DNA of 43,437 nt from Candidatus Woesearchaeota archaeon (GTDB lineage: Archaea; Nanobdellota; Nanobdellia; Woesearchaeales; UBA10216), in the NCBI GenBank assembly GCA_016192945.1, contig JACPTE010000022.1:1-43437 (forward strand), written 5' to 3'. Positions 8,917 to 20,235 of the stretch are shown in pieces. Under the pieces are notes generated by a model. That model saw only the letters and a list, made by a program, of their open reading frames with translations, was not told the origin of the DNA and searched no databases. How positions within the stretch are numbered: the first letter of the stretch is position 1; the number at the start of each line of letters is the position of its first letter. The translations under genes were made by a program, and so were the position numbers.

Positions 8917-10464
8917 TTATTTTTTCTCCTTCCCGCGCTCATCTTCCCTGACCACTGTTGAAGCCCTGTACAGCGAGTCAAAAGTTCCTGCATCAGTCCA
9001 ATGGCCATTCAGGAAGCTGTATGCCAAGGTGCCCTTCCTGATATACTCATTGTTCACATCGGTGATTTCATATTCGCCGCGAGCAGAGGGCTTAAGGGCC
9101 CTTATTATCTCAAAAACATCAGGATTATACATGTAAATTCCTGTAACAGCATACCTGCTCTTCGGCTTCCTGGGCTTCTCCTCAATCCCGATTATCCTGT
9201 TGCCCTGAAGCTCGGCAACACCAAAGCGCTCTGCATCACCAACCTCCTTGAGGAAAATCCTGGCGCTCTCGGTGCCGTTCTTGAATGCCTCAATCTCGCC
9301 TGAAATGTCATCAGTAAAAATATTATCCCCCAGGATGGCAACGAACTTGTCATTCCCGACAAAATCCTCGCTCAGCGACAAAGCCTGGGCAATCCCAAGC
9401 GCACCATCCTGAACCTTGTAAGTCAGGTCAATCCCAAACTCCTTCCCTGAGCCTAGAAGCTTCATGAAGTCTCCAGCGCACTCTGTCCCGGTAATCAGCA
9501 AAATCTTCCTTATCCCAGCATTTATCATGGAAAACAACGGATAAAATATCATTGGCTTGTCATGGACAGGCAAAAGATGCTTGTTTGTAACCTTGGTTAT
9601 TGGCAGCAGCCTTGAGCCAGTCCCCCCTGCAAGGATAACGCCCTTAATCGTGACCAACCCGAGATAATCCTTCAACGCATCCTCCCACCCCCTCAGGGGC
9701 TCAAGCTTTGTGTTGATAAGTATGGAGCACTTGGGGCGCCTTGCAGGCCTGTCAAGCTCATCGCTGGTGATTGGAACAACAACAGTCTTGAGTCCTGCGA
9801 GCTCTATAATCTTCTTTGCATACTCATACCAGCTGCATGAGCCTGAATTGGTAACATGATAAATCCCGAAGTCACAACTGTAGACAATTTCCTTAATCTT
9901 CACTGCAACATCCTTGGTGTAGCCAGGGCAGATGACCTGGTCTGTGACTACAGCAATCTTGTCGCGCTCCCTGGCCAGCCGGATTATGGTATCAACAAAA
10001 TTTGACCTGTGCCTTCCGAAAAGCCCGGAAGTCCTGACTATGAAGTATTTCTCCATCTTTTCCCTTATCAGCCGCTCAGCAAGCGCCTTTGCCTGGCCGT
10101 GAACATTAATAGGATTGGGCTGGTCATATTCTGTATAGCCGTTCTGGTTCCCGTCAAAAACATAGTCTGTGCTGAGATGCAGAAGAGAGGCCCCAGCAAG
10201 ACTGCAGGCATCAGCCACATATCCTGCTGCATAGCCATTCACCTCAAGGCAGAGTTCCTTGCTTGTTTCAGCCCCGTCAACATCAGTGTATGCTGCAGCA
10301 TTAATCACCAAATCAGGCTTCAGCTCAGCTATCTTTCTGGATACATCGCCCTTCTTCGTAATGTCAAGGTCCTTTCTCTTCCAGGCAACAACCTTTTCAT
10401 TGCTGAACACTGAAACAAGGTCCTTTCCAAGAAGCCCGTCAGCCCCTAAAATGAGGATTTTCAT
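8917..10464 (-). CDS. RmlD-RmlA fusion: dTDP-4-dehydrorhamnose reductase + glucose-1-phosphate thymidylyltransferase
   Basis: N-half MKILILGADGLLGKDLV...STDYVFDG; C-half IKGVILAGGTGSRLLPITKVTNKHLLPVHDKPMIFYPLFSMINAGI; one continuous 515-aa ORF. Confidence 0.92.
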   Translation of the reverse strand: MKILILGADGLLGKDLVSVFSNEKVVAWKRKDLDITKKGDVSRKIAELKPDLVINAAAYTDVDGAETSKELCLEVNGYAAGYVADACSLAGASLLHLSTDYVFDGNQNGYTEYDQPNPINVHGQAKALAERLIREKMEKYFIVRTSGLFGRHRSNFVDTIIRLARERDKIAVVTDQVICPGYTKDVAVKIKEIVYSCDFGIYHVTNSGSCSWYEYAKKIIELAGLKTVVVPITSDELDRPARRPKCSILINTKLEPLRGWEDALKDYLGLVTIKGVILAGGTGSRLLPITKVTNKHLLPVHDKPMIFYPLFSMINAGIRKILLITGTECAGDFMKLLGSGKEFGIDLTYKVQDGALGIAQALSLSEDFVGNDKFVAILGDNIFTDDISGEIEAFKNGTESARIFLKEVGDAERFGVAELQGNRIIGIEEKPRKPKSRYAVTGIYMYNPDVFEIIRALKPSARGEYEITDVNNEYIRKGTLAYSFLNGHWTDAGTFDSLYRASTVVREDERGKEKK

Positions 10465-11480
10465 TGTGATGCCTCCTTAAGCCCGTGCTTTTCATAATAA
10501 TGGCTCCTGTAATACTCAAGGAACTCGCCGCTCTTGATTTTTTCCCACCAGGCCCTGTTATTCCTGTACCAGGCTACAGTTTCCTTCAAAGCCCTCCTGA
10601 AATCATGCGAAGGCTTCCACCCAAGCTCCCTTACCTTTGAAGTGTCAACAGAATACCTCTTGTCATGCCCAGGCCTGTCCTTCACAAGCTTTATCAGGGA
10701 TTTTGGCTTTTTCAACTCAGAAAGAATCATCCCTGTCACTTCAAGATTAGTGAACTCGTTGCCAGCGCCTATATTGTATATCTCCCCTGTCCTGCCCTTC
10801 TCCATCACAGCAAGGATTGCCTCGCAATTGTCAATTACATAAATCCAATCCCTGACCTGCAGGCCATCCCCATACAACGGGAGCGCCTTGTTCTCAATGG
10901 CATTTGTTATGAAAAGGGGAATAAGCTTCTCAGGATGCTGGAATGGGCCGAAATTATTGCTGCTCCTTGTAATCAGAACAGGCATGCCATAAGTCTCAGA
11001 GTAAGACTTCGCAATAAGCTCCCCGCCAGCCTTGCTGGCCGAGTAAGGGCTGCTGGGAGACAGGACTGATGTCTCAAAAAAAGAGCCCTCTGAAATGCTG
11101 CCGTAAACCTCATCAGTGCTAACCTGGACAAAGCCGCAATCGTTCTTCCTCGCAGCCTCAAGAAGAACATACGTTCCAAACACATCAGTCATGATAAAGC
11201 TGCCCGGCCCGCTTATAGAGCGGTCAACATGGCTTTCAGCAGCAAAGTTAACAATAACATCGCACCCCTTAGCTACGGGCTCAACAAGCTCACTGCTGCA
11301 TATATCACCCTCAATAAAAGTATAACGGCTGTCATTCTCAACATCCTTCAAATTGTCCTTATTGCCTGCGTAAGTCAGCTTATCCAGGTTTATTACACTG
11401 GCATCCTTGTACTTCCCAAGGACGTGCCTGATGAAATTGCTGCCTATAAACCCTGCCCCGCCTGTAACGAGATACTTCAT
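10461..11480 (-). CDS. rmlB: dTDP-glucose 4,6-dehydratase
   Basis: [59 protein letters not shown]. Confidence 0.95.
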   Translation of the reverse strand: MKYLVTGGAGFIGSNFIRHVLGKYKDASVINLDKLTYAGNKDNLKDVENDSRYTFIEGDICSSELVEPVAKGCDVIVNFAAESHVDRSISGPGSFIMTDVFGTYVLLEAARKNDCGFVQVSTDEVYGSISEGSFFETSVLSPSSPYSASKAGGELIAKSYSETYGMPVLITRSSNNFGPFQHPEKLIPLFITNAIENKALPLYGDGLQVRDWIYVIDNCEAILAVMEKGRTGEIYNIGAGNEFTNLEVTGMILSELKKPKSLIKLVKDRPGHDKRYSVDTSKVRELGWKPSHDFRRALKETVAWYRNNRAWWEKIKSGEFLEYYRSHYYEKHGLKEASQ

Positions 11481-11957
11481 TCAGCCACCCTTATTTGCCT
11501 TCCACTTGTAAGGAATCTCAATCGCATCAAAGGGGAGCCTGTACTCGTCAGGCTTCTCATGCGAGAACGGAGGCCTGTTATAGCTCCTGTCAGGAATGTT
11601 GACTACAACAGCCTCCTCAGCTGAAGCGCACTCAAAGCCGTGATACACACCAGGGGGAATCTTGACAAGGACGGGATTTTCATCCATGCTGATGACAAAC
11701 TCCTGAATCTCGTTTCTCGTGGGAGAGCCCTCCCTTGAATCAAACAAAACAAGCCTCATCCTGCCCTTGACGCAAGTGAAGAAATCAGACTGAATCCTGT
11801 GATAATGCCACGCCTTTGCAAATCCCGGGAGGCATGTGGTCACGTAAACCTGGCCAAACCCCTCAAAAAAGGGCTCATCCGAGCGAAGAACCTCCATCAG
11901 CCTGCCCCTCTCATCAGGGATTGCCTTAAGCTGCTTTACCTTTACGCCATATATCAT
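11481..11957 (-). CDS. rmlC: dTDP-4-dehydrorhamnose 3,5-epimerase (RmlC-like)
   Basis: AIPDERGRLMEVLRSDEPFFEGFGQVYVTTCLPGFAKAWHYHRIQSDFFTCVKGRMRLVLFD; start likely at internal Met 11957 rather than 11978. Confidence 0.88.
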   Translation of the reverse strand: MIYGVKVKQLKAIPDERGRLMEVLRSDEPFFEGFGQVYVTTCLPGFAKAWHYHRIQSDFFTCVKGRMRLVLFDSREGSPTRNEIQEFVISMDENPVLVKIPPGVYHGFECASAEEAVVVNIPDRSYNRPPFSHEKPDEYRLPFDAIEIPYKWKANKGG

Positions 11958-12003
11958 AAAACAGATAAAACGCAACATATTTAAATACTTTGTTGTTACT
12001 TGA

Positions 12004-12021
12004 GTAATATTAGAGTATTAC
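12004..12021. promoter_or_regulatory. candidate operator: hyphenated palindrome GTAATA-N6-TATTAC
   Basis: Immediately upstream of ATG 12023 in the rmlC / RHH-NTase divergent intergenic region; TATA-like catatttaaatac sits upstream. Confidence 0.5.
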
Positions 12022-12022
12022 C

Positions 12023-12844
12023 ATGAAAGCCAGGGTATCCATATCAATAGACCGGAATGTCCTTGAAAAGCTGGACAGGGAAGTAGACAACATAAACATA
12101 CAATCCAGGTCAGAGGCCATTGAGAAGATAATCAACCAGCATGTAAGCGAAAGGAAAAAATGCGTTATACTTGCAGGAGGGGAGCCGCAAAGCCTCTATT
12201 CAAGCGAGCTTGGATGCTACAGACCCCTTGCAAGGATAAACGGAAAAACCCTCATAGAGGACATGATAGGGAAGGCAAGGAAGATAAACTACAATGAAAT
12301 CCTCATAATCGGGGCTAAGGAAGTGCTGTCAGCAATATACAGCGAGATAGGCGATGGAAAGTCCCTTGATGTGGGCATAGAATACCTTGAGGAGAAAGAG
12401 CATCTTGGCTCAGGAAAGACACTGGCGCTCGCAAAGCCCCACATAAAAGGCACTTTCCTCTTTATGCCCTGCGACCATTACTTTGAGATGAACCTTGAAG
12501 AGGTTGAATCATACCACAAGAGAAACAAGGGAACAGCGACACTCGTAATCTACTCGGGAACAGAACACGAATGGAAGAAAAGCTCAATAGTCAGCCTTGA
12601 GGGAAACCTTATAGTCAAGTACATAGAGAAGCCGAAATACGTTGAGACGCACCTCACCTCGCTGATGACAGGGTTTGCAGAGCCGGATATATTCAGCTAC
12701 ATCCCCTCTGGAAAGATAACATGGAGCCTGCAGGAGAACATATTCACAGAGCTTGCCAAGAAAAGAAAGCTTGTTGGATACATCTACTCCGGAATGTGGA
12801 AGAACATACATGGAAAGAATGACCTGAAGGAGATGGAGAAATAG
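12023..12844 (+). CDS. ribbon-helix-helix (CopG-like) DNA-binding domain fused to sugar nucleotidyltransferase
   Basis: RHH: KARVSISIDRNVLEKLDREVDNINIQSRSEAIEKIINQHVSE; NTase: KCVILAGGEPQ...YRPLARINGKTLIEDMIGKA... Confidence 0.85.
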   Translation: MKARVSISIDRNVLEKLDREVDNINIQSRSEAIEKIINQHVSERKKCVILAGGEPQSLYSSELGCYRPLARINGKTLIEDMIGKARKINYNEILIIGAKEVLSAIYSEIGDGKSLDVGIEYLEEKEHLGSGKTLALAKPHIKGTFLFMPCDHYFEMNLEEVESYHKRNKGTATLVIYSGTEHEWKKSSIVSLEGNLIVKYIEKPKYVETHLTSLMTGFAEPDIFSYIPSGKITWSLQENIFTELAKKRKLVGYIYSGMWKNIHGKNDLKEMEK

Positions 12845-18076: not shown

Positions 18077-19378
18077 CTAGCGGCCTATTCCCTCATAATT
18101 GAAGCCGAATGCGCGCATATCAGAAGGCTCGTAAATGTTCCTGGCATCAACAATGTTTGGCAGTTTCATCAATGACTTGAGCCTTGCCTTGTCCAGCTCC
18201 CTGAACTCATCCCACTCAGTTATGATGACAAGGCAATCAGAATCCCTGGCAGCGTCATATGAATTAGAAGAATATTCCACATCATTGAGGAATTTTTTTG
18301 CGTTATTCCTGGCAACAGGGTCAAACGCACTAACCACAGCCCCCAGCTTCTGCAGCTCCCTGACCAGGACAATTGAAGGCGCATCCCTCATGTCATCAGT
18401 CTTGGGCTTGAAGGCAAGCCCCCATAATGCTATTTTCCTGCCCTTCAAATCATTCCCAACAAGCGCCTTTACCTTCTCAGCAACAAAAAGCTTCTGGTCC
18501 TCATTAACCGCGTCAACAGAGCCCATCATACGAGCCTTGCAGTTACTCTCGCCCATCATATGAATCAGGGCGCGGACATCCTTTGGGAAGCAGCTGCCCC
18601 CATAGCCTGCGCCAGCCTGAAGGAACCTCGGCCCGATGCGGTTATCCAGGCCTATTCCCTTGGCAACCATCTTTACATCAGCGCCCACAGCCCTGCAGAG
18701 ATGGGAAATCTCGTTCATAAAGGATATCCTTGCAGCAAGCATCGCATTGCTCGCATACTTGATGAGCTCTGAGCTCTGCATGTCAGCAACAAGAATAGGC
18801 CTGCCTGTGCGCTCGATAGGCTTGTATATGTCAAGCATTATTTTCTTGGCAGCATCATTATCCACGCCTATAACAATCCTGTCAGGAAGCATGAAATCGT
18901 TAACTGCTTCACCCTCCCTCAGGAATTCCGGGTTTGAGACCACATCAAAGCTCATCTTCCTCCTCTGGCTTGAGGCTATCATGTCCTTTATCCTGCTGCA
19001 AGTGCCTGGAGGGACTGTGCTTTTAACAACAACCACCTTATAGCTGTTCATGTGAATGGCTATATCCTTCGCAACAGAAAAAACAGAGGACAGGTCAGCA
19101 ACGCCGTTTTCTGCAGAGGGGGTGCCAACTGCAATGAAAATGATGTCAGAAAACTGGACAGCCTCCTTAATGTCAAGAGTGAACCTGAGCCTTCCCTCAC
19201 GGAGGTTCAGCTCAACCAAATCCCTGAGTCCAGGCTCAAAAATAGGGAGAACTCCCTTATTAAGCCCCTCAATCCTTGCCTTGTCAACATCCACGCAGAT
19301 GACATCGTTGCCCAGGTTAGCAAGGCACGTGCCCGTAACGAGGCCCACATAACCGCACCCAATCATTGAAATCTTCAT
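18077..19378 (-). CDS. UDP-glucose/GDP-mannose dehydrogenase family (UGD)
   Basis: MKISMIGCGYVGLVTGTCLANLGNDVICVDVD, GAGYGGSCFPKDVRAL, ALWGLAFKPKTDDMRDAPS. Confidence 0.95.
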   Translation of the reverse strand: MKISMIGCGYVGLVTGTCLANLGNDVICVDVDKARIEGLNKGVLPIFEPGLRDLVELNLREGRLRFTLDIKEAVQFSDIIFIAVGTPSAENGVADLSSVFSVAKDIAIHMNSYKVVVVKSTVPPGTCSRIKDMIASSQRRKMSFDVVSNPEFLREGEAVNDFMLPDRIVIGVDNDAAKKIMLDIYKPIERTGRPILVADMQSSELIKYASNAMLAARISFMNEISHLCRAVGADVKMVAKGIGLDNRIGPRFLQAGAGYGGSCFPKDVRALIHMMGESNCKARMMGSVDAVNEDQKLFVAEKVKALVGNDLKGRKIALWGLAFKPKTDDMRDAPSIVLVRELQKLGAVVSAFDPVARNNAKKFLNDVEYSSNSYDAARDSDCLVIITEWDEFRELDKARLKSLMKLPNIVDARNIYEPSDMRAFGFNYEGIGR

Positions 19379-19397: not shown

Positions 19398-19413
19398 AAG
19401 ATATAAATATCTT
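19398..19413. promoter_or_regulatory. palindromic TATA region AAGATAT-AA-ATATCTT
   Basis: Centred in the 56-bp gap between divergent UGD and RHH-NTase genes. Confidence 0.5.
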
Positions 19414-19434
19414 ACCTTCATCCTACTTTATAGC

Positions 19435-20235
19435 ATGAAGAAGAAGATAAGCATAACCATAGACGAGAAAGCGCTCCAGGAGATAGACGCCACAATAGAC
19501 AACCTTTACATCAGGAACAGGTCGCAGGCAATAGAATTCCTCGTGAAAAGCTCGCTCGGGGAAAGGAAAACCGCAGTAATACTGGCCGGAGGAAAGGAAG
19601 AGGAGCTTGAGATAGGCGCTGGAGAATACAGCGTGACTGCCAGGATAAAAAACTCCACAGTTGTTGAGAGGGCTGTAAAAAAGCTCAGGGAGAACGGATT
19701 CAAGGACATGTACATAATCGCAAGGCATAATGTGCTCACGCAAATATTCAACGTGCTAAAGGACGGGAGCGGCTACAGCGTAAAGATAAACTACATTGAG
19801 GAGAAGTCATCCAGGGGAACTGCCTCATCATTGAAGCTTGTCAAGGGAAAAATAAGCTCCAGCTTCCTGATTGTCTATGGGGACATAGTATTTGACAAAA
19901 TAAACCTTGAGGAGCTCTGGAACCAGCACGTGAAAAACAGCGCTGTAGCCACAATAGTGCTGACAACATCAGCAAAACCGCAGGAAAAGGGAACAGTGAA
20001 GATGGAGGGGAACAAAATACTGGACTTCATACAGAAGCCGAAGCAATCAGACATATACCTCGTGTTTTCCCCCATAATAGCCGCAGAGCCTGAGCTGCTT
20101 GAACAGGATGGAGACAGCCTGGAATATGACATATTCCCAAAACTCGCGGAAAAAGGGCTGATGCGGGGGCACATAAGCTCTGAAAAAGAGATTCACATAC
20201 ACACCAAGGAAGACCTGAGAGAATTCAACAAGTGA
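19435..20235 (+). CDS. ribbon-helix-helix domain fused to sugar nucleotidyltransferase, paralog
   Basis: KKKISITIDEKALQEIDATIDNLYIRNRSQAIEFLVKSSLGERKTAVILAGGKEEELEIGAGEYSVTARIKNSTVVE... Confidence 0.85.
   Translation: MKKKISITIDEKALQEIDATIDNLYIRNRSQAIEFLVKSSLGERKTAVILAGGKEEELEIGAGEYSVTARIKNSTVVERAVKKLRENGFKDMYIIARHNVLTQIFNVLKDGSGYSVKINYIEEKSSRGTASSLKLVKGKISSSFLIVYGDIVFDKINLEELWNQHVKNSAVATIVLTTSAKPQEKGTVKMEGNKILDFIQKPKQSDIYLVFSPIIAAEPELLEQDGDSLEYDIFPKLAEKGLMRGHISSEKEIHIHTKEDLREFNK

Follow-up and report, generated by a model that had tools for sequence, protein, structure and literature searches.

A ribbon-helix-helix domain fused to a probably inactive sugar nucleotidyltransferase: a candidate feedback regulator of the rml operon in a woesearchaeal genome

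The window analyzed here, a stretch of 43,437 nucleotides from the genome of a Candidatus Woesearchaeota archaeon (G000, 1.07 Mb), contains a gene that joins a putative DNA-binding domain to a sugar nucleotidyltransferase and is transcribed away from the genes of dTDP-rhamnose synthesis. The first-pass annotation read it as a trigger enzyme, in which a repressor domain is attached to an enzyme of metabolism. The question raised by this locus is whether the protein is still an enzyme or has become a regulator derived from one. The features involved are listed in Table 1. Three of them had escaped the first-pass annotation: the degenerate active-site loop of the nucleotidyltransferase, another fusion gene at 19435-20235, and a conserved operator-like site at 11993-12021.

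Table 1. Features of the window discussed in the text, with the evidence for each
Feature	Position	Strand	Evidence
RmlD-RmlA fusion, 515 aa	8917..10464	-	Domain matches, motif alignment
rmlB-like dTDP-glucose 4,6-dehydratase	10461..11480	-	Epimerase/GDP_Man_Dehyd matches; rmlB assignment from context
rmlC, dTDP-4-dehydrorhamnose 3,5-epimerase	11481..11957	-	PF00908; proposed start 11957
Palindromic TATA box TATTTAAATA	11978..11987	.	Sequence; TATA then operator also in orthologues
Operator-like site: half-sites TTGTTAC 11993-11999, GTAATAT 12004-12010, GTATTAC 12015-12021	11993..12021	+	Genome uniqueness, clade-C genomes, half-site statistics
Clade-C RHH-nucleotidyltransferase fusion gene, 273 aa (target)	12023..12844	+	ORF call, Pfam domains, conservation in relatives, AF2 model
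Ribbon-helix-helix domain (DNA-binding) at the N-terminus, residues 1-45, with ribbon MKARVSISID and helix B SRSEAIEKII	12023..12157	+	RHH_1 above curated cut-off; predicted helices
Nucleotidyltransferase fold, proposed catalytically dead ligand-sensing domain	12158..12841	+	PF00483, Foldseek, lost catalytic residues
Degenerate P-loop GGEPQSL replacing GGxGTRL, residues 52-58	12176..12196	+	Alignment
UDP-glucose 6-dehydrogenase (ugd), presumed clade-B target	18077..19378	-	PF03721/PF00984/PF03720; operator kept in G037, where ugd is unlinked
Clade-B operator-like site TATCTTACCTTCATCCTACTTTAT, tandem TATCYTAC 11 bp apart	19408..19431	+	Overlaps/abuts TATA 19402-19409
Degenerate clade-B paralogue (RHH-nucleotidyltransferase, 266 aa), divergent from ugd	19435..20235	+	Similarity, neighbourhood

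The architecture first proposed, a CopG-like ribbon-helix-helix (RHH) segment preceding a nucleotidyltransferase (NTase), is borne out. The ORF spans exactly 12023-12844, and in Pfam its residues 4-41 match RHH_1 (PF01402; 24.7 bits, E=2.2e-5, curated cut-off 20.5) and residues 47-257 match NTP_transferase (PF00483; 52.9 bits, E=4.9e-14). Matches to the NCBIfam models of archaeal GlmU-like, RmlA and NikR proteins were weak and sub-threshold. RHH_1 was also matched, at E<=0.1, by 9 of the 15 sequences in alignment set A3. An AlphaFold2 monomer model built with 15 sequences has a mean pLDDT of 87.8 and a pTM of 0.80. Helices 11-20 and 29-40 precede the NTase fold, in a low-confidence N-terminus (pLDDT 59-76) where the ribbon strand is not formed in the monomer. 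The closest PDB structure to the NTase part by Foldseek is the RmlA-type 3hl3 (E=7e-18, TMq 0.74), and other near folds include MurU and GDP-mannose pyrophosphorylases, the GMPPA/GMPPB complex among them. Since the full-length architecture, RHH included, is kept in many related genomes and is modelled as such by AlphaFold2, the fusion is not a chance joining of ORFs. A toxin-antitoxin reading (RHH antitoxin with an MNT-type nucleotidyltransferase toxin) was rejected: the domain is a PF00483 sugar nucleotidyltransferase within one fused protein, and it is linked to sugar operons.

Three full-length fusions are present in the genome itself: the target, the gene at 19435-20235 in the same window, and C1:14304-15083. 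Of 60 related genomes, 50 have family matches, many of them full length with RHH; across the phylum, the count at E<=1e-20 is 146 among 382 genomes. The wider relatives were recovered by searching genome contigs with the clade alignment, while the single target protein as query gave none. The family is widespread in DPANN archaea, and the relatives that have names come from MAGs of Woesearchaeota, Aenigmatarchaeota, Parvarchaeota and Micrarchaeota. A maximum-likelihood tree of the NTase domain, with 69 fusions and 4 ordinary NTases and with some long-branch rows of unsure place, contains four clades, each on one side of a branch: A (support 98/99), B (100/98), C (99/96) and D (100/100). B, C and D are grouped together at 100/99. 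The target falls in clade C, which is monophyletic.

The divergent arrangement with rmlC across 65 bp (11958-12022), also claimed at first, was confirmed: the upstream gene on the opposite strand matches the expected epimerase family and likely starts at 11957. Both promoters seem to use one TATA box, with rmlC leaderless and an intergenic region of 65 bp, because TATTTAAATA lies about 25 nt from that start. The box is apparently common to the two promoters, and the spacing from its centre, judged by what is usual in archaeal promoters, makes a leaderless rmlC message likely. An alternative, longer rmlC ORF call from 11978 would place the TATA box at the start of the coding region. Downstream of rmlC, the RmlA part of the RmlD-RmlA fusion keeps its motifs intact (GGTGSRL, GDN, EKP and WTDAG). 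The RmlD-RmlA fusion is retained in G003 and G008 with 74-76% identity, and other relatives have separate genes. In G008, rmlC appeared to be absent in the ORF scan, but it was found at full length by tblastn. In a visual count over the ORFs listed for MAG contigs, of which some are short, rmlC or rmlB is the divergent neighbour in 10 of 15 clade-C members. Of the remaining members, most neighbour other sugar-nucleotide genes, and L063, L068 and L069 are among the members with no directly divergent rml gene.

Directly 5' of the target start codon, between this codon and the TATA box, is GTTACTTGAGTAATATTAGAGTATTAC, which can be read as three GTAWTAC-type half-sites 11 bp apart. In the 1.07-Mb genome the three-half-site pattern occurs a single time, and for a looser pattern of two half-sites the 11993-12021 region is the only place without mismatch. 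Allowing up to one mismatch, the three-part pattern was found in 5 of 60 related genomes, exactly those with clade C (G000 included) and always at the clade-C gene, versus 1 match for the reversed control in the 60 genomes. Upstream of the 15 clade-C genes there are 46 half-sites, against a mean of 9.1 and a maximum of 19 in 1000 shuffles; control promoters at the same loci (n=119) have a mean of 0.12, none with two. Tandem half-sites are kept in Aenigmatarchaeota, Parvarchaeota and Micrarchaeota orthologues with 39-46% protein identity, phased by 10-11 bp and in varied combinations of orientation. The shuffles, the control promoters and the whole-genome counts speak against the inverted repeat at this promoter having arisen by chance, and that reading was rejected. 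Among the genomes searched, we found none with a clade-C site at a target operon unlinked from the clade-C gene. The idea that the protein regulates the divergent rml promoter is strongly supported at the level of comparative genomics, by the conserved divergent linkage together with a conserved, genome-unique operator-like site.

The part of the first reading that did not hold is the enzyme. The active site described for HddC has a GXGXR motif, two lysines and one Asp (PMC6981941). The GxGTR loop of the target is EPQSL, and the loop Arg is conserved in none of the 15 clade-C members. The PKP lysine is replaced by Arg in 14 of them (R67 in the target) and kept in one. From the metal-binding Asp pair, the first Asp is kept (D151 in the target) while the last is Asn in 15/15 (N261 in the target). 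The same Asn is found in 8 of 16 clade-A members, and since half of that clade shares it, this substitution alone is not diagnostic of inactivity. Given the catalytic residues lost across clade C and the intact RmlA in the operon, we judge that the target is probably inactive as a catalyst, and by these alignments the trigger-enzyme description does not fit it. Some residual activity may persist, considering that D151 and the EKP lysine (K203) are kept and that clade A, which is presumably active, has Asn at the last Asp position in half of its members. A true trigger enzyme, in which an active sugar-1-phosphate nucleotidyltransferase would also repress rml and, as PutA does, alternate between its catalytic and DNA-binding roles according to the amount of substrate, could appeal to the intact NTase fold, to the retention of D151, E202 and K203, and to clade A, which is related and has intact motifs behind the same RHH-like N-terminus. 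We consider it unlikely for the target, in view of EPQSL in place of GxGTR, a loop Arg that no clade-C member conserves, a PKP Lys changed to Arg in 14 of 15, and an operon already provided with an intact RmlA.

That description fits clade A better. Its members have the loop Arg in 15 of 16 sequences and the PKP Lys in all 16, and the paralogue at C1:14304-15083 (L052:7954-8841) has intact catalytic motifs, an RHH-like N-terminus and a phosphoglucomutase/phosphomannomutase (PGM/PMM) gene following it. In the clade-A members examined the next gene encodes about 444-450 aa, and it is the PGM/PMM gene in G000. Tandem TATCATAC-like sites are found 5' of the TATA box in 7 of 15 clade-A members (shuffle mean 0.2, maximum 3). 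With its intact motifs, RHH-like N-terminus and adjoining PGM/PMM gene, the C1 paralogue would be the strongest candidate for a genuine trigger enzyme.

In clade B, represented in the window by the 266-aa paralogue, the same catalytic positions are mostly lost, with Asp to His in 9 of 26 members and Glu to Gln in all of them. UDP-glucose dehydrogenase is the divergent neighbour of most clade-B genes. Their tandem site has the form TATCYTAC-(11 bp)-TATCCTAC and occurs once per genome in 20 genomes, with 0 matches for the control pattern. Nineteen of the 20 sites are at the fusion gene or at the adjoining ugd promoter. The remaining one is at the ugd promoter of G037 (L096, G037:C41, about 3090-3113), a genome where the clade-B gene is on a different contig. 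Because this site stays at an unlinked ugd, it follows the target gene and not the regulator gene alone, which suggests regulation in trans by clade B. In G006, G010 and G012 (L012, L015 and L050), the stretch that separates the clade-B start codon from the operator holds long inverted repeats, possibly a terminator or leader structure.

These sites also bear on a second alternative, in which the dead NTase domain would be a regulatory pseudo-subunit that mainly binds and allosterically tunes the active RmlA, with the RHH serving only for autoregulation or dimerisation. The model for it is human GMPPA, an NTase paralogue without catalytic function, which binds GDP-mannose and acts as a regulator of GMPPB (PMC11228364), and GMPPA/GMPPB structures are among the closest folds to the target (7d72). 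GMPPA resembles what is proposed for the target in being an NTase-fold protein that lacks catalysis, binds a nucleotide sugar and regulates a pathway, but it acts by protein contact and has no DNA-binding domain. We regard this alternative as very unlikely, as it leaves unexplained both the conserved operator in a promoter shared with the target operon and the clade-B site retained at an unlinked ugd.

We consider it probable that the target is a repressor with a pseudoenzyme sensor, through which nucleotide sugars would exert feedback on the rml operon. It would be a one-component transcription regulator evolved from a sugar-1-phosphate nucleotidyltransferase, and by sequence it fits such an origin: a predicted DNA-binding domain, a probably inactive enzyme homologue, a linked operon and an operator-like site are all present. 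The RHH domain would dimerise and bind the three half-sites at 11993-12021. The bound protein would then cover the transcription start of its own gene and adjoin the rmlC promoter on the side of its BRE, the element recognized by TFB, and a single complex could repress both divergent genes. Repression of both is the most likely outcome, because binding there would block the regulator start and crowd the rmlC BRE. The NTase fold, its catalytic loop lost, probably still binds dTTP, dTDP-glucose, dTDP-rhamnose or glucose-1-phosphate, and ligand binding would shift DNA affinity, so that dTDP-rhamnose synthesis would come under feedback control. That the protein senses a nucleotide sugar directly, as first suggested, is plausible, and it is the genomic linkage that points to a dTDP-linked ligand. 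Activation of rml from the same promoter, by the apo or the ligand-bound protein, with repression restricted to its own gene, is compatible with the position of the operator, which lies between the shared TATA box and the regulator gene, 5' of the rmlC BRE, where archaeal activation could occur. It seems improbable to us, since the tight packing against TATA and BRE favours steric repression and RHH proteins are mostly repressors.

The target belongs to none of the PutA, BzdR or GMPPA systems, although in its principle it is like PutA and BzdR, and GMPPA is a precedent for the proposed sensor. BzdR combines an HTH domain with a shikimate-kinase-like domain. It is thought to derive from an enzyme recruiting a DNA-binding domain (PMC3602430), and as an enzyme-derived regulator it is similar to the target, but its DNA-binding fold is different and its sensor is derived from a kinase, whereas the genome of the target still has an apparently active fused clade-A member. 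PutA (trifunctional proline utilization A), in which an N-terminal RHH is fused to a metabolic enzyme, is an autogenous repressor of its own pathway (PMC5293562). It has an RHH and an enzyme-type domain in one protein, as the target does, but PutA is catalytically active, a flavoenzyme that moves from DNA to the membrane, while the fused domain of the target is an NTase with lost catalytic residues in DPANN archaea. RmlA, the glucose-1-phosphate thymidylyltransferase, has the same fold (3hl3), and the target is linked to dTDP-rhamnose genes; the target differs in having no GxGTR loop and no PKP lysine, and in its RHH domain. The RHH of the target aligns with the N-termini of NikR, one of the RHH_1 repressors, but the C-terminal domain of NikR senses metal, where the target has an NTase fold. 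We found nothing specific in the open-access literature on an RHH-nucleotidyltransferase regulator, a nucleotidyltransferase trigger enzyme or a dTDP-rhamnose-sensing rml repressor, and no regulator with a nucleotidyltransferase-derived sensor is described in the open-access literature searched. To our knowledge, metabolite-responsive regulation of transcription in DPANN archaea is almost unexplored.

With about even odds in our estimation, the DPANN fusions would be DNA-binding sensors derived from nucleotidyltransferases, with one clade per pathway: C for dTDP-rhamnose, B for UDP-glucuronate, and A, as a fused enzyme that is still active, for the PGM/PMM operon to which it belongs. The transition from enzyme to repressor would then be preserved in the paralogues of one genome. 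If this is true, a single small genome holds a presumably active fused enzyme (A) and two inactive relatives dedicated to promoters (B and C), and the evolution of regulators from enzymes by recruitment of a DNA-binding domain becomes directly testable. The predicted operators are short, unique and defined to the base, making binding and reporter tests straightforward, and they are possible parts for nucleotide-sugar biosensors.

The fourth clade has a different neighbourhood. In clade D (L074-L078, L080, L082 and L087, from family f75 of the same class), the GxGTR loop is deleted, and the divergent neighbour is a proteasome beta-like gene instead of a sugar operon.
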